From positions 1-44,574 of IMG/VR virus record IMGVR_UViG_3300020477_000765: a stretch of DNA of 44,574 bases. One strand, 5' to 3'. Under the pieces are notes generated by a model that worked only from the letters and a program-made list of their open reading frames with translations, did not search any database and was not told the origin of the DNA. The number at the start of each line of letters is the position of its first letter. Positions within the stretch are counted from its first letter, which is position 1. Source of the stretch: a virus. Both the position numbers and the translations under genes were made by a program. This document shows, piece by piece, positions 580 to 41,542 of the stretch.

Positions 580-2211
580 ATGATAAAACTATTTACAAGT
601 ACCTGGAGTGCTTGTTTGACTGCTTTAATATTGATTATTATTTATATTTCTAATCCTATATTAATACAAAAAACAAGACTTTCCTCACTAGACTACTATC
701 AGAATTTTGGAAACAATTATGAATCCAAAAGTTTAATTTTATTGGACATTTCGGATAACGCTTTAAAGAAAGAAGGTCAATGGCCTTGGAAAAGAGATAC
801 GGTCGGTCGTGCTGTCATCAACGCATATAAAAATGGTGCAGCTTTAGTCTTTGTAAATTTAGTCTTTGTACATAAAGATAGACTAGGTGGTGATGAAATG
901 TTTTTAAAAATGATTTCAAAGTATCCTATTATCTTAACTGAAACTAAAGACGCAAAAAATTTAATCAGTATAAAAAGAAAAGTATTAGGTGTAGGTGATG
1001 TTGAAGTTCCTATTGATGTTGATGGCACCATTAGAAAACTACCTCTAAAAAATTCTGTGCCTGAAGTTATTTTAAAAGTAATAAAGTTTCCTATACCTAA
1101 CCAAGATGATGTTTGGATTGATTTTAGACATCAAATTCCTAGAATAGATTATGCTGATAATGATTGGTCTAATATGAAAGGTAAAATAGTTTTTATTGGA
1201 ACAACTTTCAAAGGTTCTACTTTCGTTCTAACTCCTAATGGTTTAAAAAACACACACGAAATTATGGCCTTATCAACTGAAACATTATTGTCTGGTAAAT
1301 ATATTACTAGACCTGATTGGTTACCTAAAGCAGAATTTGGTATTACAATATTAGCATTAATATTCTTTTTACTTGTAATGCCTAGAATTGGATTGTTATG
1401 GTCTGCATTATGTCTAGTAGGTTTCTATTTTGATATAGCACTTGCAAGTGGTTATCTATGGACTCAACATATGATTATAAGTGATTGGATAACTCCTATG
1501 CTTGTAGGTAGTATTGTATGGGCACATTTAATTTATAATAATTTTGCTAGAGAAAATAGATTAAAATTACAAATCAAAAAACAATTTGAACACTATCTTG
1601 CTCCTGCAATGGTTAAGAAACTACAAAACAATCCTTCTCTATTAAAACTAGGTGGTGAAAGAAAAGAATTAACATTTTTGTTTTCAGATATTAGAGGTTT
1701 TACTCCTATATCAGAATCTATGAAAGGTGATCCAGAAAAACTTACCAAGTATGTTAATAAGTTTCTAACTGCAATGACAGATATAATATTAAAAAATGGT
1801 GGGACTATTGATAAGTATATGGGTGATTGTATTATGGCATTTTGGAATGCACCATTAGATACACCTCAACATAAAAAACTTGCAATTAAAACTGCTAGAG
1901 AAATGAAATTTAAATTAAAAGAAATGAATAAGAACGGCGAATTTAATCCCCCATTGAATATAGGTATAGGTCTTAATACAGGTGATTGTCTTGTAGGTAA
2001 TATGGGTAGTGAACAAAGGTTTGATTATTCAGTAATTGGAGACGCTGTTAATCTTGCTAGTAGGTTAGAAGGTATAAGTAAGAATTATAATACAACTATA
2101 ATTATTAGTGAATTTACACGCAAAGATATTGAAGGTTTTAAATTTTATAAATTAGATGATGTTCAAGTGAAAGGTAAAGAAGAAAAGGTTACTATTTTTT
2201 CTGTTCACTAA
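580..2211 (+). CDS. CHASE2-domain membrane adenylate cyclase (class III)
   Basis: 543 aa and the only plus-strand gene. A transmembrane helix (about 8-28) leads into a CHASE2-like extracytoplasmic sensor (to about 240). Three further helices follow (about 253-268, 271-290, 300-318), then a cytoplasmic class III cyclase domain (about 362-543). The catalytic set looks complete: metal-binding D370 (FSDIRGF) and D416 (YMGD), K412 at the adenine-selecting position, S484 where many bacterial cyclases have T/S, and transition-state N491 and R495 (VNLASR). It should make cAMP in response to a periplasmic signal. No Shine-Dalgarno is visible before the ATG. The 3' end overlaps the convergent glutamine synthetase gene by 20 bp. 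Such receptor cyclases are typical of bacteria, so acquisition from a host is likely. Confidence 0.93.
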   Translation: MIKLFTSTWSACLTALILIIIYISNPILIQKTRLSSLDYYQNFGNNYESKSLILLDISDNALKKEGQWPWKRDTVGRAVINAYKNGAALVFVNLVFVHKDRLGGDEMFLKMISKYPIILTETKDAKNLISIKRKVLGVGDVEVPIDVDGTIRKLPLKNSVPEVILKVIKFPIPNQDDVWIDFRHQIPRIDYADNDWSNMKGKIVFIGTTFKGSTFVLTPNGLKNTHEIMALSTETLLSGKYITRPDWLPKAEFGITILALIFFLLVMPRIGLLWSALCLVGFYFDIALASGYLWTQHMIISDWITPMLVGSIVWAHLIYNNFARENRLKLQIKKQFEHYLAPAMVKKLQNNPSLLKLGGERKELTFLFSDIRGFTPISESMKGDPEKLTKYVNKFLTAMTDIILKNGGTIDKYMGDCIMAFWNAPLDTPQHKKLAIKTAREMKFKLKEMNKNGEFNPPLNIGIGLNTGDCLVGNMGSEQRFDYSVIGDAVNLASRLEGISKNYNTTIIISEFTRKDIEGFKFYKLDDVQVKGKEEKVTIFSVH

Positions 2212-3196
2212 TAGAAGATAACAAGTAATTTAAAACTCTATAAGGGTCTGCATTTGAAGCAGGTCGTCTATCTTCTAATCTACCTCTATATTCATTTTCT
2301 ACCGTTGCAATAGGTATTCTAATACTGGCACCTCTATCAGATACTCCATATGAAAATGTATCTATACTTTGTGTTTCGTGTAGACCAGTTAATCTTTTAT
2401 CATTATCAGAACCATAATCACTTTTAACTCTTTCAGGATCGTGTGTAGTTTTTAATGCCTCACATAAACCTTTGATATAAGATTCAGTACCATAATCTCT
2501 CATTCTTCCATTAGAAAAGTTAAGATGTAATCCTGATCCATTCCAATCTCCTGATATAGGTTTAGGTTTCCAATTAACAGATACACCATATTTTTCTGCA
2601 ATTCTACTTAACATATATCTGGACATCCATAAATCATCTGCAGCTGAAATCCCCGTACCAAAACATTGATATTCCCATTGACCTAATGCTACTTCAGCAT
2701 TAATGCCTCGTATATCTATACCTGCATTTAAACATTTATGTAAATGTTCTTCAGCAACTTTTCTACCTACTACATTATCAGGACCCACACCACAATAATA
2801 TTCTCCTTGAGGTCTTGGGAAAGTAGAAGGCCACCCTAAAGGTCTACCTTTATGATATAAAAAATATTCTTGTTCAAAAGCAAACCACCAATCATTTGAA
2901 TCATAAGGTTCTGTATCATATCTTGTATTTGATATATGTGGATTTCTTTTTTCATCTTTCACTTGACATAATACAAATTTATCTATGCCATCAAAACCTT
3001 TATATTCTTTTACAGGTTCTAATATACAATCGGATGATTTACCTTCTGCTTGTTTGGTAGAGCTTCCATCAAACGACCACGCAGGTGCGGTCATTGATAA
3101 ATGGTGAGCCTTTTCGTCTTTTGATTTTACTTTGATTTTTGAGCGTAGATTTGGGTCTGGTTTATATCCATCTAACCATACATATTCTAATATCAT
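2192..3196 (-). CDS. glnII: Type II (eukaryote-like) glutamine synthetase
   Basis: 334 aa, close to the usual length of GSII and far shorter than GSI. It makes glutamine from glutamate, ammonia and ATP. Visible GSII signatures are WSFDGSST (40-47) and SSDCILEP in the beta-grasp domain, FEQEY (107-111) with metal-binding glutamates, WNGSGLHLNFS, and the C-terminal SDRGASIRIP and LEDRRPASNADPY blocks. No catalytic block is missing. It is the last gene of the operon holding formate dehydrogenase and the lysis-like genes, and its 3' end overlaps the convergent cyclase gene. As a cytosolic enzyme it would support nitrogen assimilation and nucleotide synthesis during infection (inference). Confidence 0.95.
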   Translation of the reverse strand: MILEYVWLDGYKPDPNLRSKIKVKSKDEKAHHLSMTAPAWSFDGSSTKQAEGKSSDCILEPVKEYKGFDGIDKFVLCQVKDEKRNPHISNTRYDTEPYDSNDWWFAFEQEYFLYHKGRPLGWPSTFPRPQGEYYCGVGPDNVVGRKVAEEHLHKCLNAGIDIRGINAEVALGQWEYQCFGTGISAADDLWMSRYMLSRIAEKYGVSVNWKPKPISGDWNGSGLHLNFSNGRMRDYGTESYIKGLCEALKTTHDPERVKSDYGSDNDKRLTGLHETQSIDTFSYGVSDRGASIRIPIATVENEYRGRLEDRRPASNADPYRVLNYLLSSISEQKK

Positions 3197-3341: not shown

Positions 3342-3509
3342 TTATTTTTTTCTGTCTGTTAACTTATTAATTAACTCAAATGCTACTTTAACTTTTTCTT
3401 CTAGCACTTTAATTCTATAATGTGATTGTGCCAAGGTTACAATTAATAAAATAAATGCAACAAACATTGGCCATAATCTACTTAACATTAATACAGCTTC
3501 ACTATCCAT
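3342..3509 (-). CDS. 55-residue membrane plus coiled-coil protein
   Basis: The start codon overlaps the formate dehydrogenase stop by one base (TAATG). It has a transmembrane helix (about residues 10-29) followed by a charged, heptad-like tail (HYRIKVLEEKVKVAFELINKL). The layout recalls small phage holin-associated or XhlA-like proteins, but no family can be named. Strict coupling to both neighbours supports real translation. Confidence 0.6.
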   Translation of the reverse strand: MDSEAVLMLSRLWPMFVAFILLIVTLAQSHYRIKVLEEKVKVAFELINKLTDRKK

Positions 3510-4705
3510 TATTTTTTAAACTTCGCAGCTTCCTCTGAACCGCCTGTAGCAGTTCCTTTTGTATAAGAATGAGCACCCATACCTGCAAGGTCTCCATCTT
3601 TAACTATTAAATATTGATTTCGTATTTCTTCTCCGTCAAAGAAACACTCCAATATTTCTCTAACACCAGCAGCATATCTTGCTTGTGCTGATAAAGAAGT
3701 ACCAGATGTATGAGGTGTCATACCTTGATTTGGCATACTTCTCCAAATGTGGTCGTTAGGAGCAGGTTGTGGAAACCAAACATCTCCTGCATAGCCACTT
3801 AATTGTCCTGACTCTAATGCTCTTGCAATAGCATCCTTATCACAAATTTTTCCTCGTGCTGTATTAATAATATATGCACCAGGTTTACACTTACTAATTA
3901 ATTCATCATTAAATAAATGTTCCGTTTCAGGATGTAATGGACAACTTATATTAATTACATCACAAACAGCAACTAACTCCTCAACTGAATTGTGATATAT
4001 TAAATTTAATTCTTTTTCTTTTTCTTCTGGCAATCTATGTCTATCAAAGTAATGTAAATGAACATCAAATGGTTTCATTTTTCTTAACATATCATAACCA
4101 ATTCTACCAGCGGCAATTGTTCCTATGTGCATACCTTCAACATCATAACTTCTTTTTACTGCGTCTGCAATATGCCATCCGCCTTCGTTAACTATTCTAT
4201 GTTGATTATGATAATCTCTAACTAAAGATAATATCATCATAACAATATGTTCAGCAACTGACCTTGAATTACAATAGGTTACTTCAACTACATCTATTTT
4301 ATGATCCATCGCTGCTTGTAAATCTACGTGGTCAGAACCAATACCTGCTGTGATAGCCATTTTTAAATTTGGTGCTGATTCCATTCTTTTTCTTGTTAAG
4401 TAATATGGCCAAAATGGTTGTGAGATTACTACATCTGCGTCAACTAATTCTTTATCTGCTGTACAACCTTCGGCGTCTTTATCTGAGGTTACAACTAATG
4501 TATGTCCTCTATCTTCTAAAAATTTTCTTAATCCTAATTCTCCAGATACACAACCAAGTAATTCTCCTGGTGTAAAATCAATACCTTTAGGTGTTGGTAA
4601 TGACATACCATCTGGATACTTTTCTAATTTTGGTAAGTCTTTAACTGGATATGATTTTGGCATACCATCTTTTGGATCGTCATATAATATACATAATATT
4701 TTCAT
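3509..4705 (-). CDS. fdh: NAD-dependent formate dehydrogenase
   Basis: 398 aa, the normal length of bacterial and plant FDH of the D-2-hydroxyacid dehydrogenase superfamily. It oxidises formate to CO2 and reduces NAD+. Residue numbers coincide with those I recall for the Pseudomonas enzyme: N146, nucleotide-binding AAGRIG (198-203), D221 (NAD preference), R284 (TARGK), Q313 and H332 (TPHTSG). All are present, so it should be active. It starts one base into the stop of a lipoprotein gene and is followed directly by two tiny membrane genes. Its place inside a lysis-like operon suggests late expression. The likely gain is NADH from C1 metabolism of a formate-using host (inference). Confidence 0.96.
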   Translation of the reverse strand: MKILCILYDDPKDGMPKSYPVKDLPKLEKYPDGMSLPTPKGIDFTPGELLGCVSGELGLRKFLEDRGHTLVVTSDKDAEGCTADKELVDADVVISQPFWPYYLTRKRMESAPNLKMAITAGIGSDHVDLQAAMDHKIDVVEVTYCNSRSVAEHIVMMILSLVRDYHNQHRIVNEGGWHIADAVKRSYDVEGMHIGTIAAGRIGYDMLRKMKPFDVHLHYFDRHRLPEEKEKELNLIYHNSVEELVAVCDVINISCPLHPETEHLFNDELISKCKPGAYIINTARGKICDKDAIARALESGQLSGYAGDVWFPQPAPNDHIWRSMPNQGMTPHTSGTSLSAQARYAAGVREILECFFDGEEIRNQYLIVKDGDLAGMGAHSYTKGTATGGSEEAAKFKK

Positions 4706-6759: not shown

Positions 6760-7035
6760 TTAAGGTTGCTGTAATCGTTTCTTTGAAAGCATTTTAGTTT
6801 TCGCTCTATCAATCTTTCTTTGTAAAACTTTTGACTTAAGCCTATCAGATATTGCTGTTAACATAGGTTTAATTGTTCCCATACCAGGTCCCTTATATTG
6901 TGAAAATGTAGTTGCATATCTTTTGTTGGGGTAAAATTGGTGGGGTGAATTTAATGAGGCCATTGGCTTGTTTATATCAGCAGCCGGACCTATGCCAACA
7001 CTAGGCATTCCTAAATATTCTTTAAAAGTTTTCAT
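6760..7035 (-). CDS. Small virion-type protein with capsid-targeting-like N-terminus
   Basis: 91 aa, beginning MKTFKEYLGM, the same N-terminal style as several proteins up to 19268, but lacking the glutamate of an LxE cleavage site. The middle is glycine/proline rich and the C-terminus is very basic (KSKVLQRKIDRAKTKMLSKKR), which would suit DNA contact inside the head. It has no recognised family. It ends the virion-protein run and is 13 bp from the DUF1353 gene. Confidence 0.6.
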   Translation of the reverse strand: MKTFKEYLGMPSVGIGPAADINKPMASLNSPHQFYPNKRYATTFSQYKGPGMGTIKPMLTAISDRLKSKVLQRKIDRAKTKMLSKKRLQQP

Positions 7036-7045
7036 ATGTTATTTA

Positions 7046-7687
7046 TTATTTTAAATCTTTAACCTTATCTTCTATTTCACCATCAAATATAGATAATAAT
7101 TTACCTGCAACTTTATCTCTTGTTGTTCCTGGTACCGTTCTACTTGAAGGACCAGCAAGTTCTTTTACTTTATTATCTACTGCATATCTAAACAATTTAA
7201 CTGCCAAATTTTTATCATATACACCTTTTGCTTTTTTACGAGCCAAATTTAAAATAATAGGTTGTATCTGCATTCTATATAACTTTTCATCATTACTAGT
7301 TTGTAATACTAATTCTTTTTCACTATAAGATTCTTTTTGATACCTAGTTAAGAAAGTAGAAAATTTACTTTTTTCTCCTTCTTTCTTTTTCTTTTTAGGA
7401 TCAATTCCTGGTTCGTGTGAAGGTGGCAAAGCCACATTGGAACCATCCCCTACTGCATTTGCAGGAGCATCCTCTTTTTGTGTTTCTTCATTTGCTCTTC
7501 TTAAAGCATTAGCAACATCTGGATGACTTGCTAAACCTTTTGCAATTTTTTCAATAGCGGCAACTGCACCTGAATAATTACCACCTTTATATCTAGGATC
7601 ATTTAAAATACCATACGCTTGTTTAATTTGTTGCGTAGTATAATCTTTTTTCTCTCCTAGTTTTACTCTTAACTCTTTTAATTTCAT
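7046..7687 (-). CDS. Putative virion protein with LGE-type N-terminus
   Basis: 213 aa starting MKLKELRVKLGE; an L-x-E site falls at residues 10-12, as expected for a capsid-targeting peptide. Residues about 30-65 (DPRYKGGNYSGAV, IEKIAKGL) form a helical domain. A low-complexity linker (NVALPPSHEPG, then KKKKK) leads to a helical C-terminal half. Comparable proteins occur in marine T4-like phages as unnamed structural genes (from memory). Its start overlaps the upstream stop by 4 bp. Confidence 0.6.
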   Translation of the reverse strand: MKLKELRVKLGEKKDYTTQQIKQAYGILNDPRYKGGNYSGAVAAIEKIAKGLASHPDVANALRRANEETQKEDAPANAVGDGSNVALPPSHEPGIDPKKKKKEGEKSKFSTFLTRYQKESYSEKELVLQTSNDEKLYRMQIQPIILNLARKKAKGVYDKNLAVKLFRYAVDNKVKELAGPSSRTVPGTTRDKVAGKLLSIFDGEIEDKVKDLK

Positions 7688-8280
7688 AGTCGTATTCTCT
7701 CTATATTATCCTCTGATACTACAACCTTGGTGTCCTTATCTTCATTATAAAGTTCATACACATTAACACCTAAAAAATTATCACTAGGTTTAATATCATA
7801 TTTGGTAGAAACAATATCACCTACATCTGCTGTAGCATTGTCATCTAAATCTTTTAAATCATCTACCACGGTAAATCTACCTTTAGGTAAATAATCTATT
7901 TCTACACCTTCTTTTATACTATCATCATATTTAATTAAATCATTTTCTAATAAATGTTTATATAATGCCTGTTCTATATTACCAGAGTTTAAATACTTTT
8001 CTCTATCTTCTCTTAATAATAATGCAAGAGCAGCTGCATATGTTCCAATTTTAGATTTGCCACCTGGAACAAGTCGTATTAATCTTTTTAAATTAAAGAC
8101 AAACCTATGCAACAAAGTATAAGCATTTTTTTCATTGCCACCTGTTAAACTTTTGGCTCTTTTTAATACTTTACCATCTTTGTCTATAATACCTAATTGA
8201 AAAGCTTTTGTCTTTTCAAAAGGTGTAACTAATAATTTAATAACTCTATATGTTATTAATAAATCTATCGCTCTTCCCAT
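7684..8280 (-). CDS. Conserved T4-like phage protein, probable virion component
   Basis: 198 aa beginning MGRAIDLLITYRVIKLLVTPFEKTKAF. Residues 1-105 form a conserved helical domain (including LLHRFVFNLKRLI and the alanine-rich AAALALLLRED); the rest is more polar and beta-like. I recall this type as widespread in marine T4-like phages without a named function. It is coupled to both neighbours: start overlapping by one base and stop overlapping by 4 bp. Confidence 0.6.
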   Translation of the reverse strand: MGRAIDLLITYRVIKLLVTPFEKTKAFQLGIIDKDGKVLKRAKSLTGGNEKNAYTLLHRFVFNLKRLIRLVPGGKSKIGTYAAALALLLREDREKYLNSGNIEQALYKHLLENDLIKYDDSIKEGVEIDYLPKGRFTVVDDLKDLDDNATADVGDIVSTKYDIKPSDNFLGVNVYELYNEDKDTKVVVSEDNIERIRL

Positions 8281-8642
8281 TATAGTTCCTGTAAGCTCTT
8301 TAATATTGTTTTGTTTATCTTAACACTTTTTAGTTCTTCATCTTGTACATATTTTAAATATACTAAAAAAGTTTTAAGTACACTCCAAAATTCTTTTTCA
8401 ATTTTGAATAATAACAAGGTGCAACAAGCATCCACACCAAAAACATTTTGTAAGACAATTATATGATTAATAATTAATCTAGTTTTCAGTTCACCTGTTG
8501 TCTTCCACTTACGAAATAATCTTTTGAGATATTTAAATCTCTTTATATCCTCATTAAATTCTGTTTGAGAATCTAAACTAGGACTTTCATAATTTTTTAT
8601 TGCGTAAAATAACCAATTTTCTCTTGTTATCTTTTCAAACAT
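8280..8642 (-). CDS. Conserved T4-like phage protein, unknown function
   Basis: 120 aa, helical throughout, starting MFEKITRENWLFYAIKNYE. Conserved-looking segments are EFNEDIKRFKYLKRLFRKW and TRLIINHIIVLQNVFGV, with a cysteine pair (about 73-74). The style is very common in marine T4-like phages, always unnamed as far as I recall. Located between two virion-type genes with gaps of 0 and 7 bp. Confidence 0.6.
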   Translation of the reverse strand: MFEKITRENWLFYAIKNYESPSLDSQTEFNEDIKRFKYLKRLFRKWKTTGELKTRLIINHIIVLQNVFGVDACCTLLLFKIEKEFWSVLKTFLVYLKYVQDEELKSVKINKTILKSLQEL

Positions 8643-23949: not shown

Positions 23950-25314
23950 TTAATTAAAAAATTGTTCTAAAGTATTTTTTCTAGCGTGTCTAAAGTAATC
24001 TAAATCTGCTTTACCAAAGCACCAGACATTTTCAATATACAATTGATTCATAAAAGCCTTCAACTCTTCCTCCGTTTTAAATTTAGCACGACCTTGTGGT
24101 CTTTGCATAATTCTCATTCCAATTTGACCTTTAAATCTCTTTGGAAATCCTAATGTTCTTGGACTAATCAAAGCGTCAACTAATTCATCACAACTTTTAT
24201 AACGAGTACCTTTAACGGTAGGATCCATTATGTTAATAAACATATGTCCTTTATCGCTTAAACTATTATAACTATTTATAGAAACTGGGATAAAGAAATT
24301 ATCTCTCCATAAATCATATTCATTAAACTTACTCCACGATTGATCCTGTGAAAATTCGCCACCCTCATTATATCTTTCTGTTGAAAAATAAGGGGGACTT
24401 GTAAAGGCACAATCTATATTATTAATTTCATCCCAAGGTAAATCCTCAGCACCACATCTATATATTGTTACCTTTTTAATTCCATCGCAAGTGATAATAT
24501 GGTTTCTATCAAATGTATCTATAACTATATTACTATTTTTATTACCTAATAATCTTTCATAGTGTTCAATTTGTTGAGCATATCTTTCAAAGGTATTTGG
24601 ATTAGGATCACAACCAATATATTCTTCAGCCTTACTTGTATAGAACCCAGCAAGTCTATCTCCCCAACCACAACTTGTATCTAATACTTTTTTAGCATCC
24701 GTCATTTCATATACCATTTTTGCTACATTAGGTTTAAATTGTGTTGCAATATAAGTTTGTAATCTAAATGCTGATACATAACTTTTATCATTTAATTGAC
24801 CACCTCTTAATTCTTCTTTACCATCAACCATTACAGGTTTCATTCCATTGATACCTCGCCACATAGGACCTAAACATCTCCATATATCTTTTGCTGTGCC
24901 TTTAGTCCATACATCAATAGGAGATTTAAAACTATAGCTTGAACAATTCAATCTTAAATCTTGGTGAAAATAATTTGATACATCATTATAAATTGATGGT
25001 GCGTCTATAAGACCTAGTCCGTGTTCTTTATAATTGTATTTGTAATCATCATATTTTTCAAAGATTGTTTTTTGTGCTTGTTCTTTAGGTTGGGCATATT
25101 CCCATACATCTTGTTTTAATAAACCTTTAAATGATTGTTCCATTAATCCAATTGAAATTTGTTTTAAAGGAAATGGTGGTCGTTTTTCTGCAATATATTC
25201 TGCTAACTCTTCCCTAAATTTTTCTTTACCTATCTCATTAGTAATACGCTCAAAGGTAGGTTGATCCATTACAGGTAATCTATTTTCATTAATATGTTTA
25301 TCCAAGAAGCTCAT
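23950..25314 (-). CDS. DNA methyltransferase, SPPY type (paralogue of the gene at 38864)
   Basis: 454 aa. The SAM-binding motif I is VLDTSCGWGDRL (210-221) and the catalytic motif IV is FTSPPYF (304-310), the order of an alpha-like arrangement. SPPY points to amino-group methylation of cytosine N4 or adenine N6. A long N-terminal region (1-170) may choose the target. CDELVDALISPRTLGF and RIMQRPQGRAKF follow. It overlaps the next methyltransferase gene by 17 bp. It shares motif I, spacing and FRxxxA- segments with the 347-aa enzyme at 38864-39907, so the two look like diverged copies. Confidence 0.85.
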   Translation of the reverse strand: MSFLDKHINENRLPVMDQPTFERITNEIGKEKFREELAEYIAEKRPPFPLKQISIGLMEQSFKGLLKQDVWEYAQPKEQAQKTIFEKYDDYKYNYKEHGLGLIDAPSIYNDVSNYFHQDLRLNCSSYSFKSPIDVWTKGTAKDIWRCLGPMWRGINGMKPVMVDGKEELRGGQLNDKSYVSAFRLQTYIATQFKPNVAKMVYEMTDAKKVLDTSCGWGDRLAGFYTSKAEEYIGCDPNPNTFERYAQQIEHYERLLGNKNSNIVIDTFDRNHIITCDGIKKVTIYRCGAEDLPWDEINNIDCAFTSPPYFSTERYNEGGEFSQDQSWSKFNEYDLWRDNFFIPVSINSYNSLSDKGHMFINIMDPTVKGTRYKSCDELVDALISPRTLGFPKRFKGQIGMRIMQRPQGRAKFKTEEELKAFMNQLYIENVWCFGKADLDYFRHARKNTLEQFFN

Positions 25315-26206
25315 TATGTTTTCCTAATCTTTTTTCTATATCTATTATATACGATTTTTGTTTTTCAATCAAGTATCCAATTCTACCTTCTAATATGCAG
25401 GCTTCTCCAGTAGTTCCTGTTCCTGCAAATGGGTCTAATACTAATCCTTCTTTAGGTGTAACCAATTTAATTAAGTATCTAATTAATGCTAAAGGTTTAA
25501 CCGTTGGGTGTTGAGTGTCTCCTTTTTCTTTTTTACTTGCTTTTGGACTATAAAAATATTTTGCCCAATCTTCTTCCAATCCATCGTGTATTATATTTGC
25601 AGGATAACGACCTGATATTTTTTCGCCACCTTCTTTTCCCTTCCAACCACCTTTAAAGATTTGTTCCTTTTGTGTATTTCTTCTATTTTTAGATGTGTCC
25701 CATTCATAACCAGGCACTCTACAATCATCTATATTTAAACTAGGGTTAACTCCCTTTCTTGCCATAACAATAGGTTCGTGAGCAGGTTTTAAATAGTTTT
25801 TTCTTTTAGGAAACCCACTACCATATATCCAATTAATCATATCAAATATTTCAAACCCAGCATCCTCAACTGCAACTGCCATTCTATGATAATTTCTAGT
25901 AGCAGCAAATGCTAAAAGAATACCACCAGGTTTAAGTGTTCTATATACTTGTTCCCAAAATTCTTTTTGAAATGCAATATCTCCTCCATCCCAAGTCTGT
26001 CCCATAAAACCTTTTGCAGCTCTATGATATGGTCCATTACGACCTTCTTTCTCATCTTTATTATTAATTCCTTTTTGACCTGGTCCAAATCGTTTAACAA
26101 TAGACGCTAAATGATATGGTGGATCAGTTACACACGAATCAAATATATTATCATCTAAAGTTTTTAGATGTTCCAGACTATCTGCGTTTATTATTTTAGT
26201 TTCCAT
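25298..26206 (-). CDS. DNA methyltransferase, DPPY type (N6-adenine likely)
   Basis: 302 aa. Catalytic DPPY at 28-31 precedes the SAM-binding motif DPFAGTGTTGEA (258-269), the beta-class order. PTVKPLALIRYLI just before motif I is typical of this class. KPGGILLAFAATRNYH marks the strand after motif IV. It would methylate adenine N6 (or cytosine N4) in a short target, most likely protecting phage DNA. Codons overlap both neighbours, so three genes here are translationally linked. Confidence 0.92.
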   Translation of the reverse strand: METKIINADSLEHLKTLDDNIFDSCVTDPPYHLASIVKRFGPGQKGINNKDEKEGRNGPYHRAAKGFMGQTWDGGDIAFQKEFWEQVYRTLKPGGILLAFAATRNYHRMAVAVEDAGFEIFDMINWIYGSGFPKRKNYLKPAHEPIVMARKGVNPSLNIDDCRVPGYEWDTSKNRRNTQKEQIFKGGWKGKEGGEKISGRYPANIIHDGLEEDWAKYFYSPKASKKEKGDTQHPTVKPLALIRYLIKLVTPKEGLVLDPFAGTGTTGEACILEGRIGYLIEKQKSYIIDIEKRLGKHNELLG

Positions 26207-35837: not shown

Positions 35838-38132
35838 TTATGCGACCTCCTTGATGAATTTTTGTAATAATACTCTGGATACTAATCTATCCTTCATACT
35901 ATTTGCAAAAATCGTTTTAATTTTACTTTTTTTCATATCTTCTTTTATCTCATCTAAATTAAAATTCTTAACTGCTGTATCTGCCTTAACATAAAAATAC
36001 TTGTCATAAGCAGTATTCTTGTCAGCAAGAACCTTATCTTTATTAAATGTCTTTTTCGCCAAAGCAACTTTATCATAAGGACAATTAAAGTGCCAATATA
36101 AATCTTTGTATCTTCTAACTAAAAAGAATCCGATTGCCTGTATGCCGTGTCTTTTTTTCAAATAACTTATTAATCTTCCTGTTAAAGATATTTTCTGTTC
36201 TCTACTTCCATAACCAGAACAATCAACATAATTCTTTCCTAGTTTCAACCAAATATCTCCGTGTTGCCTCATTCCGTTTGAACCACCATCAGTTAAAGCA
36301 ATTAAAGCAACTTTATCTACTTTATAATCATTTCTAAATTTTCCAATTATTTTATCCATTGCAATTAAAGATTCATCTAAAGGTGTTGAATGTAAACCAA
36401 ATTCATCTGGTGGATGTGGCAATCTATTTAATTTTTCTGCAAAATCTGAATACATAACTTCTTTTCTTCTAGCATAAGAGTGGTTATAATAAACGCCGTA
36501 TCTATGTAAATATAAAGCAGACTTATACATATCTGTTTTTGATTGTTTATGTGAAAACAATTGAACCAACTTTGTTGATTGGTCTGCCCCTATTACATTT
36601 GGTCCTTCACTAAATGGTTGTTCTTTTTTTGGTGTGTCTTTTTTTTCATTTCCAAACAAACCTCTATAATAAGAATTGTTTAAAAACATATATACTGAAA
36701 AAGGTATATTAATTTTTCTAGCAAATAATACTAAATTTAATAATTGTTCAACCGTAGGTAACAAGTGGTTACTCATACTACCTGACCAATCTAATAAAAA
36801 TATCATTCCGTGGTTCTTCTCATTTGGAACTATTGTAATTTTTTTAAATATATCTTCAGCATATTTGTATGAATATAATTTTAATGGATCAATCACACCA
36901 GTTTTTGCTGTTGAAGCTCTTGCGTGTAATCTAGCATTTTTTTTCATTTCAAATTCTTTAACTAGATAATTAACCGTTCTTGTAGAATTGTGTATAAATT
37001 TCTTAAATATGTTTCCGTGTTCATCAAGAGCAGAACCATAACCAGAGTGTTTTCTTTCCTTAATTTCTTCTAAAATATTCTTTTTAATAAAATCTTTATT
37101 TGAAATAATTAATTTTTTTAAATTAACTTTAGGTAAGTGGCAATAATCTCTTTTACTAATATTATCATCTGCCATTTTTTGTCTTGCTTCTTCATATGAG
37201 TCAGCGGTTACAGGTCTTATTGGTACTTGACCTCCTGCATTATTTGAAAATCCTTTAAACTTTTTGGATTGATTATCTTCTTTTTTTTCTTTTTCTTTAG
37301 AGTCTGATTTTCCGTCTTTATCATCACCGTCTTTTTTATCATCTCCAGAAGAACCTTTTTCCTGTTCTTTTAATTTCTTATCTAAAAATTCATCTAATTT
37401 TTCACTACCAGATTTATTGTCATCATCCTTACTTTCAGCAGAATTACCTGAATCACTATTTCCTTCTTCTTCATCATCTTCCTTTTTAGGGGGAGCATAT
37501 ATATCTGCTGTTGCGTGGGTATCTAAATTTGGTATTTTAGACATTTGATTTTTACAATGTCCTAATATTTCTTCAGCAAGTTTTTTAACATCCTCAAAAG
37601 TTTTTAATTCATCAACTAACTTAACAAAGATTTTTTCTTTTTTATCAAAATCTAAATCTAAAGTTTTTGATGATTTAAAGTATAGGTTGATTTTATCAAT
37701 TGTTAAATAATCGTTTAATTTTCTTCCTTTAGTTTTAAAGAAATTGTCTTTATATAATTTTTTAAATCCTTCTAAATAGTCTTTTTTAAGACCAGGATAT
37801 TTCTTTTGAATCTTTTTATCTATTCTACAATCTTCCAACACATTAACAAACGACCTAAATTCATCTGTTTTATTTTTCATCTTTACCCAAGAATCTGTTG
37901 GTGTCCATAATGCGTGAGCGACCTCGTGGCCAACTAACATATCATAAACATTTTTGGATTTGTGTTCTTTTTTGAAAATCGGTATTGTTAAAATTCTATC
38001 TTTAACATCAAAACTAGCTGTCTGAGCAGAGTTTTCTTGTACTTCTATATTTTCTGTTGCAAGTAATTTGGCAAGTGTAGATTTTTTCTCTACATCATTA
38101 TCTTCAACTTTCTTTTTACTGAAATCTATCAT
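35838..38132 (-). CDS. Metalloprotease-like plus von Willebrand A protein (CobT-like)
   Basis: 764 aa from MIDFSKKK; a 14-codon longer start overlaps the promoter and is rejected. A zincin-like HEVAH (69-73) with a downstream EDCRID block suggests a metallopeptidase fold. A very acidic, low-complexity linker spans about 216-290. The C-terminal half has a VWA domain with the metal site DWSGSMS (448-454) and a later LTDGGSNG. This is the MoxR-partner layout (AAA+ ATPase plus VWA), as in CobS-CobT or viral-type stress chaperones. The pair may remodel a host or virion complex; substrate unknown. Confidence 0.82.
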   Translation of the reverse strand: MIDFSKKKVEDNDVEKKSTLAKLLATENIEVQENSAQTASFDVKDRILTIPIFKKEHKSKNVYDMLVGHEVAHALWTPTDSWVKMKNKTDEFRSFVNVLEDCRIDKKIQKKYPGLKKDYLEGFKKLYKDNFFKTKGRKLNDYLTIDKINLYFKSSKTLDLDFDKKEKIFVKLVDELKTFEDVKKLAEEILGHCKNQMSKIPNLDTHATADIYAPPKKEDDEEEGNSDSGNSAESKDDDNKSGSEKLDEFLDKKLKEQEKGSSGDDKKDGDDKDGKSDSKEKEKKEDNQSKKFKGFSNNAGGQVPIRPVTADSYEEARQKMADDNISKRDYCHLPKVNLKKLIISNKDFIKKNILEEIKERKHSGYGSALDEHGNIFKKFIHNSTRTVNYLVKEFEMKKNARLHARASTAKTGVIDPLKLYSYKYAEDIFKKITIVPNEKNHGMIFLLDWSGSMSNHLLPTVEQLLNLVLFARKINIPFSVYMFLNNSYYRGLFGNEKKDTPKKEQPFSEGPNVIGADQSTKLVQLFSHKQSKTDMYKSALYLHRYGVYYNHSYARRKEVMYSDFAEKLNRLPHPPDEFGLHSTPLDESLIAMDKIIGKFRNDYKVDKVALIALTDGGSNGMRQHGDIWLKLGKNYVDCSGYGSREQKISLTGRLISYLKKRHGIQAIGFFLVRRYKDLYWHFNCPYDKVALAKKTFNKDKVLADKNTAYDKYFYVKADTAVKNFNLDEIKEDMKKSKIKTIFANSMKDRLVSRVLLQKFIKEVA

Positions 38133-38228: not shown

Positions 38229-38864
38229 CTACTTTTGTTCTATTTTCTTAAAAAAGATGAGTTTTTTGTTCTCTCCAGTAGGTTTCACATATAATTTTTT
38301 AAGTGATTCTTTATCGTGCCATTTCATAGATACTGATTTGTGGGGTGGGAGACCTGCAGTATAACCTATCATATTCCAATTATCTGCTTTATATACTGCC
38401 CCATTATTTCCCCCAGCAACAAAGGTTACTAGGTACTTTAATGTATCGCCGTATTTCTGTTTCCAAATAAGGGGTGCTTGTTTTCGCAATTCTTTCAATA
38501 TTTGAGTTCCTGCATTTTTGATTTTTTCTCTCATACAGAATCTCCAGTTATTTGCAAATGAATTAAAGTTATTTTTATATTCATTTTTAGTCATTTTAAT
38601 ATGTGTTAATATATCTTTAGGTGGTGGATAAACAGACGACCCTATACCAATCATACCTATTGGTTTATCATCATTAAATACAACCCAATCTATTCTTCTT
38701 CCTACTGAAACCGTAGATGGTACATAACTATGAAATTGTGTGATTGTTTCTTTGATAAAATTCTTTGAAATTTTATCGTTGGCAACTCTTAATTCAAATG
38801 TTGTTGGGTGGTTTTTCTTTAAACGGTCGTGCCTAAAATTAACATCCATTGTCCACTTGTTCAT
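38229..38864 (-). CDS. DruA/Mom-like DNA-modification-type protein
   Basis: 211 aa. IDWVVFNDDKPIGMIGIGSSV (58-78) and LKYLVTFVAGGNNGAVYKADNWNMIGYTAG (142-171) carry the pattern of the DUF4338/DruA and Mom-like families: an AxNW/ADNW segment after a GxxY block, on a GNAT-like fold. Mom of phage Mu adds a carbamoylmethyl group to adenine N6. The start overlaps the stop of an SPPY DNA methyltransferase by one base. The assignment is from motif memory and could prove to be another acyltransferase-like family, but the link to DNA modification is strong by context. Confidence 0.6.
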   Translation of the reverse strand: MNKWTMDVNFRHDRLKKNHPTTFELRVANDKISKNFIKETITQFHSYVPSTVSVGRRIDWVVFNDDKPIGMIGIGSSVYPPPKDILTHIKMTKNEYKNNFNSFANNWRFCMREKIKNAGTQILKELRKQAPLIWKQKYGDTLKYLVTFVAGGNNGAVYKADNWNMIGYTAGLPPHKSVSMKWHDKESLKKLYVKPTGENKKLIFFKKIEQK

Positions 38865-39907
38865 TATTCTGGTTTTTGAAATATAAAAGTAGGTTCATAT
38901 TTTCTCCCACCTGGGAAGTTTTTAGTTTCTTCTCTTTTTTGGTTAGAGTCTTTTTGTTGTGTTGATAGTGATAACCACCAAGTATTTGATTGTTTAAATC
39001 CTACATCTAAAGCTAATGCAACCGTATCTTCTTCAAATGTTTTATATTGTTTTGTATTCGCAACATTGATTGCCATATACTTACCTGGTTTTAATCCTAT
39101 ATAAGCGTTCTGGAAAGTCTTTTTCAAAAACTTCTCTTTCCACATATCTTCTTCTGGATATGCTTTAAATGATTGTTCTTCTTCTTCACCATATTGTTCC
39201 CAACCAAAGTAAGGTGGACTAGTCATTACAAAATCTAGTGTATCTGGTTGTGGAATAAATGTTTCACTACCTTGTCTTAATAATCTATAATTCTTATCCT
39301 TCAGTCCATACTCATCTCTAATTTTTTCTAAACCTTCATAAGTAGGAATACAAGGATCCGTACCTATATAATTTACCCCAGCTGCAATTGCACCTAATAA
39401 ACGACCCCCATAACCCATACTTGGATCCCATACTAGACCTGCTTCTGTTCCTTCTAAAGGACTTTCTTTCTCTACAAATACATCATATAAAGCTGCGGCT
39501 GCTGTTGGTCTAAAATTTGATACCATTTGAGTTCCTGAGTATCTTCTTAACATAGACCTCATATCTGATTCTGTAATTTGATGATGTTCTTTTTGTTTAA
39601 AAAATGTGCCTGATAAAATCTTATTAATACCCTTCTTTAAATGCTCTTCATCATTCCATATTTCCATAGGGGTTTTCATTTTACCACATTTGATACCCCA
39701 ACTATGTTCCATATAAGACCAGGCAAGTGATAATCCGTGGGGTGATTGACCTATAATATTTAACTTACGGTCTATAATTAATTCTCTTTTAAATGATACT
39801 AATTGTTGGAAAGCATTATCTCTCCATTTTTTATCTGTAGGATATTTAGGAAATCCTTTATTCTTCCAATCAGTATAAACTTCGTGTAATAGATTTTCGT
39901 CTAACAT
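38864..39907 (-). CDS. DNA methyltransferase-like, SPPY type
   Basis: 347 aa. Motif I VWDPSMGYGGRL (159-170), acidic motif II IGTDP (181-185), and motif IV MTSPPYF (228-234). A C-terminal GRKYEPTFIFQKPE follows. SPPY suggests N4-cytosine or N6-adenine modification. The N-terminal 120 residues are unlike the 454-aa paralogue at 23950 but the cores match closely. It shares overlaps with the GNAT gene before it and the DruA/Mom-like gene after it. Confidence 0.82.
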   Translation of the reverse strand: MLDENLLHEVYTDWKNKGFPKYPTDKKWRDNAFQQLVSFKRELIIDRKLNIIGQSPHGLSLAWSYMEHSWGIKCGKMKTPMEIWNDEEHLKKGINKILSGTFFKQKEHHQITESDMRSMLRRYSGTQMVSNFRPTAAAALYDVFVEKESPLEGTEAGLVWDPSMGYGGRLLGAIAAGVNYIGTDPCIPTYEGLEKIRDEYGLKDKNYRLLRQGSETFIPQPDTLDFVMTSPPYFGWEQYGEEEEQSFKAYPEEDMWKEKFLKKTFQNAYIGLKPGKYMAINVANTKQYKTFEEDTVALALDVGFKQSNTWWLSLSTQQKDSNQKREETKNFPGGRKYEPTFIFQKPE

Positions 39908-40316
39908 ATACTTTACCTTTTATCTTTCCTTTTGCCCAATTGTGTTCACCAATTTCTTTCATACCTATTATATCATAAAATTTACAGGCATTCAAGTTGT
40001 CAGCTCTTACTGATAAATACACATCTTTTTCGCACCAATCAAAAAACTGCAATAGTATTTTCTTTGCATTTCCATTGCCTGATTCTTTATTTGCTATTTG
40101 ATGTAGTATTGTTTCGCCTTTATTCACAGGAACATTACCAATCTTTTGTTTTCTAGCGGCGTGATGAAAAGTTATTATTACACCATCTTGGTATATTAAT
40201 CTTTTCTTCTCTATCATCCTCCTCATATAATCTGTTCTTATATGAGGAAACCATTTCTTATGTTTATAAAAAATTAATTTTATATCTTCAAATTCACTTT
40301 GTATCGCCAATCTCAT
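39870..40316 (-). CDS. GNAT-family acetyltransferase
   Basis: 148 aa from MRLAIQSEFEDI; a 4-codon longer start exists. ESGNGNAKKILLQFF (about 82-96) fits the acetyl-CoA pyrophosphate loop, and VRADNLNACKFYDIIGMKEIG is the usual C-terminal GNAT segment. The target is unknown. It is locked by overlaps between a 2OG-oxygenase-like gene and the SPPY methyltransferase, so a role in nucleobase or protein modification within that set is likely. Confidence 0.8.
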   Translation of the reverse strand: MRLAIQSEFEDIKLIFYKHKKWFPHIRTDYMRRMIEKKRLIYQDGVIITFHHAARKQKIGNVPVNKGETILHQIANKESGNGNAKKILLQFFDWCEKDVYLSVRADNLNACKFYDIIGMKEIGEHNWAKGKIKGKVYVRRKSITRSLY

Positions 40317-40956
40317 TATCTTGCTCATTATCTTGTAATATCAATGCTCTTATTTTTTCATTAGAATAACAATCTACAACTAAATGTAATCTATCCATAT
40401 CTGCTTTATTATGTACAGCGTGTGGTCTAGTTACATCCGTATAGTAATATTTACCTTGTTCTAAATTCCAACAATATTGTTTTTTATCTCTCCACATATA
40501 AAAATATATATTGTCATTTGTTCTTATCGGTATATGTATTCTAACAATTTCACCATCTTCAAATCCTATTGACTTATCAACCTTATCAGTATGTTTTGAA
40601 ATACTTGTTCCTGCTTTTAATCTCATAACTCTTACTCTTTCAAATTTAGCAGGTATATGTGATAGTATTTCTATCAAAGGAACTAAATTTGATACTTGCG
40701 TTAAATGTGTATCCCTTAATTCTGCTGGTGCAATATCACTTTTTAATACTCCAGGTTTTAAAATATCTGCAGGATTATCACTATAACCTCTTAATGAAAT
40801 AGCATCCCATTGTCCTTTTTTATTATACTTTGTTTTGACAACAGAAAAATTATGTCCTTGCATATCTAAAAAATCACAAGCCTCTTTAAGGTCAGGCCTT
40901 TTATATTGAGGTAAATCTAATTCTTTAAGTATTGGTCGTTTCAGTTTTTTTATCAT
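40294..40956 (-). CDS. 2OG-Fe(II) oxygenase, Asp/Asn beta-hydroxylase type
   Basis: 220 aa. SKHTD (120-124) gives H122 and D124, and RPHAVHN gives H179, a complete iron triad; R189 (DRLHLVVD) is placed to bind 2-oxoglutarate. RIHIPIRTN before the triad histidine is family-typical. These enzymes hydroxylate a side chain or other substrate using O2 and 2-oxoglutarate. Overlaps deformylase by 32 bp and the GNAT by 23 bp. Substrate not evident. Confidence 0.85.
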   Translation of the reverse strand: MIKKLKRPILKELDLPQYKRPDLKEACDFLDMQGHNFSVVKTKYNKKGQWDAISLRGYSDNPADILKPGVLKSDIAPAELRDTHLTQVSNLVPLIEILSHIPAKFERVRVMRLKAGTSISKHTDKVDKSIGFEDGEIVRIHIPIRTNDNIYFYMWRDKKQYCWNLEQGKYYYTDVTRPHAVHNKADMDRLHLVVDCYSNEKIRALILQDNEQDNEIGDTK

Positions 40957-41542
40957 CTTTTATATCCCCCTTTACTCTAGCAGCTAATCTCTTTATATAC
41001 TTATCTCTTTTTTTCATAGCCATATCATATTTCATCTTACTTACTTTTTCTGTAAATACTATTCCATCCATATGGTCTAATTCGTGTTGGAAACATCTAG
41101 CCATAATGCCATCCATTTGATATTCTTTTCTATTTAAATTCTCATCTAAAAATTCTACTTCTACTCTTTGAGGTCTTTCTATATCTAAAAATAGAAAAGG
41201 AAAAGATAAACACCCTTCTTTAAATCTAACCGTTTCTTTACTTGATTTAATAATTTTAGGATTAAAACAAGCATAAACTTTGCCGTTTTCTATTTGAGGT
41301 TGACCTCCCATTATAAACATACGATAAGGTTTACCAACTTGATTTGCTGATAGTCCTATCCCACCATACCTGTGCATAGTAGCAAACATATTTCTTACAA
41401 ATTGTTGGGTTGATATACTTTCTTGTTTCAAAAAAATATCTTTATCAAAAGGTACTATACTTGATAATACTCTCGGATCTGTTGGTGGTAACAATTCGTA
41501 AATTGTATCCTTTTTCATTTTCTCATCTGTTATAACTGCCAT
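40925..41542 (-). CDS. def: Peptide deformylase
   Basis: 205 aa. All three catalytic blocks are present: GIGLSANQVG, EGCLSFP (metal Cys) and HELDHMDG (metal His pair and Glu). It removes the formyl group from new proteins. The C-terminal 35 residues are a basic tail rich in K and R. It starts one base into the gp46 stop. Phage deformylases are known in marine T4-like phages and may speed phage protein maturation; with bS21 this makes two translation genes here. Confidence 0.95.
   Translation of the reverse strand: MAVITDEKMKKDTIYELLPPTDPRVLSSIVPFDKDIFLKQESISTQQFVRNMFATMHRYGGIGLSANQVGKPYRMFIMGGQPQIENGKVYACFNPKIIKSSKETVRFKEGCLSFPFLFLDIERPQRVEVEFLDENLNRKEYQMDGIMARCFQHELDHMDGIVFTEKVSKMKYDMAMKKRDKYIKRLAARVKGDIKDDKKTETTNT

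Follow-up and report, generated by a model that had tools for sequence, protein, structure and literature searches.

The gene cassette and its borders

This study asks whether four overlapping genes from a marine virus of bacteria jointly build an altered DNA base and, if so, which of them belong together. The genes lie in the window (the whole 44,574-nucleotide stretch of IMG/VR record IMGVR_UViG_3300020477_000765 that was analysed) and encode a 2OG oxygenase, a GNAT, an SPPY methyltransferase homologue (MT) and a 211-aa Mom/DruA-like protein (Table 1). As the first-pass annotation had claimed, these genes overlap; they lie head to tail on the minus strand, and all four reading frames were found to be intact; the successive overlaps are 35 nt (2OG/GNAT), 38 nt (GNAT/MT) and 1 nt (MT/211-aa gene). 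The span from 38,229 to 41,542 that had been assigned to them holds the four named genes, but it also holds an upstream peptide deformylase gene that had gone unmentioned, which the 2OG gene overlaps by 32 nt. The position of the peptide deformylase is kept in most of the IMG/VR relatives, and it is not thought to take any part in the cassette. On the other side, a gap of 96 nt separates the Mom-like gene from a VWA/peptidase-like gene, a neighbour that was also found in relatives.

Table 1. Genes of the cassette and of its borders in the window.
Feature	Position	Strand	Evidence or role
Peptide deformylase	40925..41542	-	Pfam Pep_deformylase 5.5e-42; left border of the cassette slot
2OG-Fe(II) oxygenase, aspartyl/asparaginyl (amino-acid) hydroxylase family	40294..40956	-	PF05118, triad, PDB profile matches
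GNAT-fold acyltransferase-like protein	39870..40328	-	Weak Pfam/RimI matches, PDB profile, G86-x-A88 loop
SPPY class I amino-methyltransferase homologue (MT)	38864..39907	-	Cassette core; SPPY at 230, phrog_12517
Divergent Mom/DruA-superfamily GNAT, 211 aa	38229..38864	-	Accessory; DruA and Mom-like profiles, fold
VWA/peptidase-like protein	35838..38132	-	phrog_459 7.6e-171; right border of the slot

Identity of the oxygenase, the GNAT and the MT

Searches with single sequences and with family profiles established what the three upstream genes of the cassette encode. In the Pfam search, the oxygenase matched PF05118 (Asp_Arg_Hydrox) at 2.9e-14 (53.7 bits, with the cut-off at 22.6); this was the only 2OG-oxygenase Pfam family at E<=1, and no TET/JBP or AlkB match was obtained. 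The intact H-x-D...H triad that had been noted initially was confirmed as H122-x-D124 and H179, together with the 2OG-binding R189, and the motif H[TSA]D...H...RxHL was present in 99 of the 105 distinct homologues. Moreover, the oxygenase profile matched L-proline cis-4-hydroxylase and beta-hydroxylases in the PDB. Judged by these matches, the enzyme is a member of an amino-acid hydroxylase family and stands outside AlkB and TET/JBP, and for this reason the oxidation of an N-methyl group would be a non-obvious chemistry for it.

The GNAT was matched weakly from its single sequence (Pfam/RimI), and its assignment gained backing from the family profile, which aligned with PDB GNATs at 5e-4 to 7e-4 (RimI-type structures, E 7e-4), as well as from G86-x-A88, the G-x-G/A pyrophosphate loop, which is kept in 21-23 of 25 sequences. 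The GNAT and 2OG domains form a single fused protein in T4-like phages and also in one unrelated phage contig, L395; the window GNAT is homologous to the N-terminal domain of these 2OG fusions (hhalign 95.1%, E 3e-8), in which the acyl-CoA loop looks degraded.

In the MT, SPPY at position 230 and motif I, DPSMGYGG, are both invariant in the alignments, and the protein matched phrog_12517 at 6e-9. This agrees with the DNA methyltransferase-type core that had been described, DNA being the predicted substrate. The match of the window MT to N6_N4_Mtase (1e-4) lies below the Pfam cut-off; its ParB-linked relatives match the DNA-methyltransferase profile above the cut-off and reach 1e-94 against phrog_12517. 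The AlphaFold2 model of the MT (pLDDT 85.6) had Trm11, a tRNA methyltransferase, as its best Foldseek match, and the PDB search with the MT profile gave no match.

Conserved linkage and exchange of partners

The IMG/VR surveys covered the best 80 loci per query. Among these, the 2OG-GNAT-MT arrangement recurred in 27 of the 29 non-redundant 2OG loci, and an arrangement that recurs in this way is not due to chance. A survey of the co-occurrence of all four genes had been suggested; conservation was found for the trio but not for the quartet, as the Mom-like gene joins the MT in only three sampled lineages, with other partners in two of the three. On the strength of these loci, the conserved unit is the 2OG-GNAT-MT trio.

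Another reading, which we consider unlikely, takes the MT to be a DNA methyltransferase of the ordinary N4-cytosine or N6-adenine type, which would protect the phage DNA, with unrelated hotspot cargo as its neighbours between the peptide deformylase and VWA genes. SPPY is indeed typical of N4-cytosine methyltransferases, and the slot is a hotspot, in which Pelagibacter phage Mosig carries a DruA-domain protein. Additionally, no partner was recognised at some MT loci of the clade, and therefore the MT can work alone. However, the partners follow the MT to a different locus: they were present in 20 of the 21 loci in which the MT is relocated after the clamp loader and in 0 of the 25 in which this site has no MT (neither set was de-duplicated). 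Partners also pair with the MT in unrelated phages, and they are exchanged, since beside the MT the 2OG and GNAT genes are replaced by PLP, glycosyltransferase, 2-hydroxyacid dehydrogenase or carbamoyltransferase genes. In the PLP-anchored survey, an xPPY methyltransferase was adjacent or fused in 77 of the best 80 loci, and in 4 of these 80 the PLP domain was inserted inside a ParB+MTase protein; a cultured Erythrobacter phage likewise has the PLP domain inside such a protein. Pure co-location in a hotspot is thus weakened both by the clamp-loader control and by the fusions.

Alternation with TET/JBP and the amino acid:DNA transferase

Cultured phages were searched with the MT, the oxygenase and the Mom-like protein, and close relatives of the genes in the window were absent from the results; the oxygenase led only to Mycobacterium phage LilMcDreamy, and the MT had matches of 28-38%. 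The records of distant 2OG homologues showed an exclusive alternation of partners. In one group, an amino acid:DNA transferase (ADDT) with Tet_JBP lay beside the oxygenase, ADDT being present in 14/14 records and N6_N4_Mtase in 0/14; in the MT group, the corresponding counts were 0/16 and 16/16, and both partners occurred together in none of the records tested. Tet_JBP, like ADDT, was absent from the 16 MT-type records tested, and neither had a match among the window's cassette genes. Alternative cassettes also occupy one locus in cultured M. smegmatis phages: in the related mycobacteriophages LilMcDreamy (ParB, TET, ADDT, 2OG) and Vincenzo (ParB-MT, PLP), the alternatives adjoin the terminase and a ParB module that is 59% identical between them. 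The MT with PLP also occurs in Mycobacterium phage AlanGrant. Neither LilMcDreamy's ADDT nor its TET-like protein had a PDB match. The exchange of one oxygenase family between two sets of DNA-modifying genes, in viruses that are unrelated, suggests a widespread and undescribed disguise of viral DNA.

It could also be argued that the cassette modifies the translation machinery, with the RimI-like GNAT, the amino-acid hydroxylase and the Trm11-like MT acting on a ribosomal protein, tRNA or rRNA. The substrate of the cassette may be RNA or protein, because the fold of the MT is nearest to Trm11 and the GNAT resembles RimI; moreover, the peptide deformylase adjoins the cassette, and an S21-annotated gene lies nearby in the related phage Mosig. 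This reading is nevertheless rather unlikely: the MT groups with ParB-domain methyltransferases that match DNA-methylase families in Pfam and PHROG, Tet_JBP and ADDT are partners of the same oxygenase family, and the association holds away from the peptide deformylase.

The 211-aa Mom/DruA-like protein

The label DruA/Mom-like fits the small protein: the profile check gave 7e-6 against the DruA Pfam family, just below the cut-off, 1e-6 against the PHROG 'Mom-like DNA modification protein' and 0.039, below the cut-off, against Mom PF25680. All 23 members of the family matched phrog_1384, and hhalign of the family with bona fide Mom relatives reached 94.9% (E 4e-8). Residue T120 aligns with Mom S124, which is mutated in the inactive structure; all 23 members have Thr or Ser there, and Mom relatives have Ser or Thr. 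The comparison with Mom 8bv8 gave a VIA-align Z of 14.3 and an rmsd of 3.4 A over 167 residues, the longest alignment among the matches listed but tied with generic GNATs, and the PDB search with the Mom-like profile returned nothing relevant. In several phages, this family directly adjoins true Mom.

As a core member of the cassette, the Mom-like gene was rejected because most of its loci (40 non-redundant ones were considered) have no MT nearby. Its distribution indicates that it is a separate, mobile family that is accessory to the trio, and its product most likely makes a separate, putative adenine modification. A four-gene pathway on one base, in which the MT would methylate, the oxygenase would oxidise the methyl group and the GNAT and the Mom-like protein would transfer acyl groups, is very unlikely even though all four genes overlap in the window and the MT is directly followed by the Mom-like gene in two further lineages, since the Mom-like gene is missing from almost all trio loci, those two lineages lack the 2OG-GNAT-MT trio and the oxygenase falls outside the methyl-oxidising nucleic-acid families.

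Proposed pathway and its significance

We propose, with a probability of roughly 0.6, that phages use a modular cassette to hypermodify the bases of their own DNA by means of an amino-acid-type handle, and that 2OG-GNAT-MT is one of its versions. The MT would place a group on an exocyclic amine of the base; this group would probably be amino-acid-bearing rather than a plain methyl, and 3-amino-3-carboxypropyl from SAM is our best guess. The survey of Iyer et al. 2013 reportedly predicted DNA modifications that are made with modified SAM derivatives. The oxygenase, which belongs to a family of free-amino-acid hydroxylases, would then hydroxylate the attached group, and the GNAT would acylate its amine. 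In the relatives, a PLP enzyme, 2-hydroxyacid dehydrogenase, glycosyltransferase or carbamoyltransferase would tailor the same handle, which would lead to different final bases. The sequence comparisons support a base-hypermodification role for the 2OG, the GNAT and the MT; from them, we infer DNA as the substrate, the amino acid on the handle and the order of the steps.

A bolder proposal, which we put forward tentatively and regard as doubtful, is that the SPPY/CPPY 'methyltransferase' in fact transfers an aminocarboxypropyl or comparable amino-acid group to an exocyclic amine on a DNA base. Such an enzyme would be an alternative to TET/JBP + ADDT and the founder of a large family of amino-acid-bearing bases, diversified by swaps of hydroxylase, GNAT, PLP enzyme, dehydrogenase, glycosyltransferase and carbamoyltransferase.

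If the proposed role is true, a common and hitherto undescribed phage route to hypermodified DNA would be present in hundreds of IMG/VR contigs, and its handle would be laid by an amino-methyltransferase homologue and not by a TET or hydroxymethylase enzyme. This would explain the clustering of amino-acid-type enzymes with DNA methyltransferases in phages. It would also extend what is known of DNA-base chemistry and of the ways in which phages use camouflage to evade restriction, and would supply new DNA-labelling enzymes.

Comparison with known systems

Mom of phage Mu (PF25680, PDB 8bv8), whose family makes N6-(carbamoylmethyl)adenine, shares its GNAT fold with the 211-aa protein, and the motif G-x-VY-x-A-x-N-[FW] and the Thr/Ser opposite S124 with the 211-aa family; the likeness is limited to this accessory protein, whose match to the Mom Pfam family lies below the cut-off. 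The profile of DruA from Druantia type I (DUF4338/PF14236) was matched by 22 of the 23 Mom-like members, at best with 8e-10. However, DruA has about 400 aa compared with about 200 aa in the Mom-like family, and the context of the latter is phage DNA metabolism, unlike that of DruA in Druantia type I; none of the neighbours of the Mom-like gene was recognised as DruB-E.

We found no description of the 2OG-GNAT-MT trio in the literature; parts of the MT-PLP association may be predicted in Iyer et al. 2013. CmoA/CmoX/CmoY constitute the 5-carboxymethylcytosine pathway of a marine phage, in which CmoX is a cytosine-C5 methyltransferase homologue that uses carboxy-SAM and is accompanied by an amide ligase (PMC12783734). 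As proposed for the window, a DNA-methyltransferase homologue lays a non-methyl handle and a second enzyme elaborates it (PMC12783734). The window MT differs in being an xPPY amino-methyltransferase with 2OG, GNAT, PLP or glycosyltransferase partners, whereas CmoX is a C5-methyltransferase homologue, and neither CmoA nor CmoY was recognised among those neighbours that were annotated.

The TET/JBP + ADDT (PF18724) hypermodification of thymine is likewise a multi-enzyme route in which a handle is placed on the DNA base first and tailored afterwards. Its transferase is directly adjoined by the oxygenase family that is found in the window, and its ParB module is shared with the MT-type cassette in related mycobacteriophages; in the window, an SPPY amino-methyltransferase homologue stands in place of TET/JBP and ADDT. 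Mom of phage Mu, which had initially been named as the only known parallel, is therefore not the sole one: TET/JBP + ADDT with the same oxygenase family is closer to the cassette, and so is CmoA/CmoX/CmoY.

Layout of the cassette and its enzymes

The window, a viral record of 44,574 bases, belongs to a T4-like phage; in DNA polymerase it shares 60% identity with Pelagibacter phage Mosig and about 52% with cyanophages. Between the peptide deformylase and the VWA gene, the minus strand carries the oxygenase, the GNAT, the SPPY methyltransferase homologue (MT) and the 211-aa protein in that order, with successive overlaps of 35, 38 and 1 nt. The oxygenase is a confident member of the PF05118 amino-acid hydroxylase family in which the iron triad (H122xD124...H179) is intact and R189 is also present; the best solved relatives of its profile are L-proline cis-4-hydroxylase and beta-hydroxylases. 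The GNAT is detectable by profile and retains the G-x-A loop. MT, for which the best PHROG match was phrog_12517, has the motifs SPPY and DPSMGYGG and a predicted model (pLDDT 85.6) with a class I MTase fold, the top Foldseek match being Trm11. Two extra MTase genes adjoin the DNA polymerase, which brings the MTase homologues in this phage fragment to at least three. Its formate dehydrogenase is possibly an auxiliary metabolic gene.

Features of the window and of the compared loci
Location	Strand	Feature	Match
Window 2192-3196	-	Phage glutamine synthetase	PDB, eukaryotic-type (type II) enzymes, E 5e-86
Window 3509-4705	-	Full-length NAD-dependent formate dehydrogenase	PDB, E 2e-197
Window 23950-25314	-	MT paralogue with SPPYF, adjoining DNA polymerase	N6_N4_Mtase, 3e-6
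Window 25298-26206	-	MTase, adjoining DNA polymerase	N6_N4_Mtase, 8e-40
Window 38229-38864	-	211-aa Mom/DruA-like protein	
Window 38864-39907	-	MT	
Window 39870-40328	-	GNAT	
Window 40294-40956	-	2OG oxygenase	
L018 9071-11040		DAHP/KDO8P-synthase family protein and serine hydroxymethyltransferase, immediately downstream of MT	
L091 6001-8900		MT between glycosyltransferase-like protein, carbamoyltransferase pieces and cytidylyltransferase-cupin protein	
L212 5422-6752		True Mom immediately adjoining Mom/DruA-like gene	PF25680, 6e-48 (true Mom)
L348 (Mosig) 7032-8330		DruA-domain protein in the slot	PF14236, 1.8e-22
L429 (LilMcDreamy) 855-1787		gp02, annotated queuine tRNA-ribosyltransferase	Tet_JBP, 0.0022 (weak)

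Two alternative gene sets and the substrate

When distant homologues of the oxygenase served as survey anchors, two distinct gene sets emerged: one combines Tet_JBP and a ParB-like protein with ADDT (amino acid:DNA transferase, PF18724), and the other has MT, usually with a PLP-dependent enzyme and ParB. In Pfam tests on 30 records, ADDT was found in all 14 ADDT-type and none of the 16 MT-type records, as was Tet_JBP (nine over the cut-off), while N6_N4_Mtase was present in 0/14 and 16/16, respectively. Cultured phages of M. smegmatis that belong to one subfamily carry the two alternatives at a single locus adjoining the terminase: in LilMcDreamy, ParB is accompanied by a TET-like protein, ADDT and the oxygenase, and in Vincenzo a ParB-MT fusion is followed by a PLP protein annotated as carboxylate deaminase. 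The ParB modules of these two phages are 59% identical. Since the two sets alternate, MT occupies the place of the enzyme named for adding an amino acid to a DNA base. The annotation of LilMcDreamy gp02 is probably wrong, as judged from the strong Tet_JBP matches of its homologues.

MTases beside or fused to the PLP enzyme match a DNA-methylase Pfam family, and some have a ParB N-terminal domain; the ParB-MTase protein of Erythrobacter phage ZS04, like that of four contigs, contains the PLP domain as an internal insertion. One contig, L395, combines ParB, a GNAT-2OG fusion, PLP and MT, and its MTase matches phrog_12517 (1e-94) and phrog_498 'DNA methyltransferase' (1e-71). DNA is thus the probable substrate, as judged from the family to which the MTase belongs, the occurrence of ParB domains and the alternation with TET/ADDT. 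Action on RNA or protein is a less probable rival, the nearest folds being Trm11 and RimI.

Linkage of the partner genes

The IMG/VR surveys covered the best 80 loci per scan, these loci being fragments, and the linkage counts ignore phylogeny. GNAT and MT lay within three genes downstream of the oxygenase in 27 of the 29 non-redundant loci with enough flank, and the MT-anchored survey (100 clusters) found the trio in about a third. In the remaining MT loci, the oxygenase and GNAT were replaced by a PLP-dependent fold-type-II enzyme or a glycosyltransferase-like protein; other replacements were a 2-hydroxyacid dehydrogenase, another 2OG oxygenase, a short second MTase and a carbamoyltransferase. 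The genes around MT in L091, also seen in L065 and L089, are another alternative tailoring set. Several non-trio MT loci had GNAT and 2OG fused into a single protein, the N-terminal domain of which aligns with the family of free-standing GNATs (hhalign 95.1%, E 3e-8) and may have lost acyl-CoA binding.

The grouping could be mere co-location in a hotspot, as the content of the peptide deformylase-VWA slot varies between phages and that of cultured pelagiphage Mosig holds a DruA-domain protein, but partner genes also accompany an MT of another group located after the clamp loader (within four genes in 20/21 loci with MT vs 0/25 without; Fisher p about 4e-12, relatedness uncorrected and loci not de-duplicated), and in unrelated phages an xPPY MTase was adjacent or fused to PLP in 77 of the best 80 loci.

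Proposed mechanism

Most likely, MT would equip an exocyclic amine of a base with a handle, and the oxygenase and GNAT would tailor this handle. Some partners are able to act on an amino-acid-like group (amino-acid hydroxylase, amine acyltransferase, PLP enzyme, 2-hydroxyacid dehydrogenase) and others to cap a hydroxyl (glycosyltransferase, carbamoyltransferase). Because every alternative partner fits one of these roles, we favour a handle that carries an amino acid, e.g., aminocarboxypropyl from SAM, tentatively and at roughly three chances in ten.

The 211-aa protein

The 211-aa protein is classed in the Mom/DruA superfamily, as a divergent representative. Its family matched DruA in 22/23 and the PHROG Mom-like family in 23/23 members, and aligning its profile with that of bona fide Mom relatives gave 94.9% (E 4e-8). 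In this alignment, T120 pairs with a serine of Mom that is mutated in the structure of the inactive enzyme; the fold similarity to Mom (Z 14.3) equals that to generic GNATs. The first-pass annotation had placed this gene in one operon with the trio. Among 40 non-redundant loci, it was seldom near MT and often stood alone or adjoined either the DNA polymerase or a true Mom; it directly followed MT in the window and only two other lineages sampled, both with PLP/GT replacing the trio. The protein would probably perform a separate adenine modification. True Mom also adjoins a Mom/DruA-like gene in L207, L209, L216, L223 and L231, as in L212, and hence two Mom-superfamily enzymes may cooperate.

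Comparison with known systems

TET/ADDT thymine hypermodification is a phage pathway in which a handle is placed and then tailored. The CmoA/CmoX/CmoY carboxymethylcytosine route described in 2025 follows the same logic (PMC12783734), and Mom-family enzymes are reportedly encoded by jumbo phages (PMC7824862). A literature search, with the survey of Iyer et al. 2013 lying outside it, found no description of the 2OG-GNAT-MT combination or of MT and TET/ADDT taking each other's place next to one oxygenase family. Compared with the TET/ADDT pathway, the difference is that MT replaces TET/ADDT beside the same oxygenase family.
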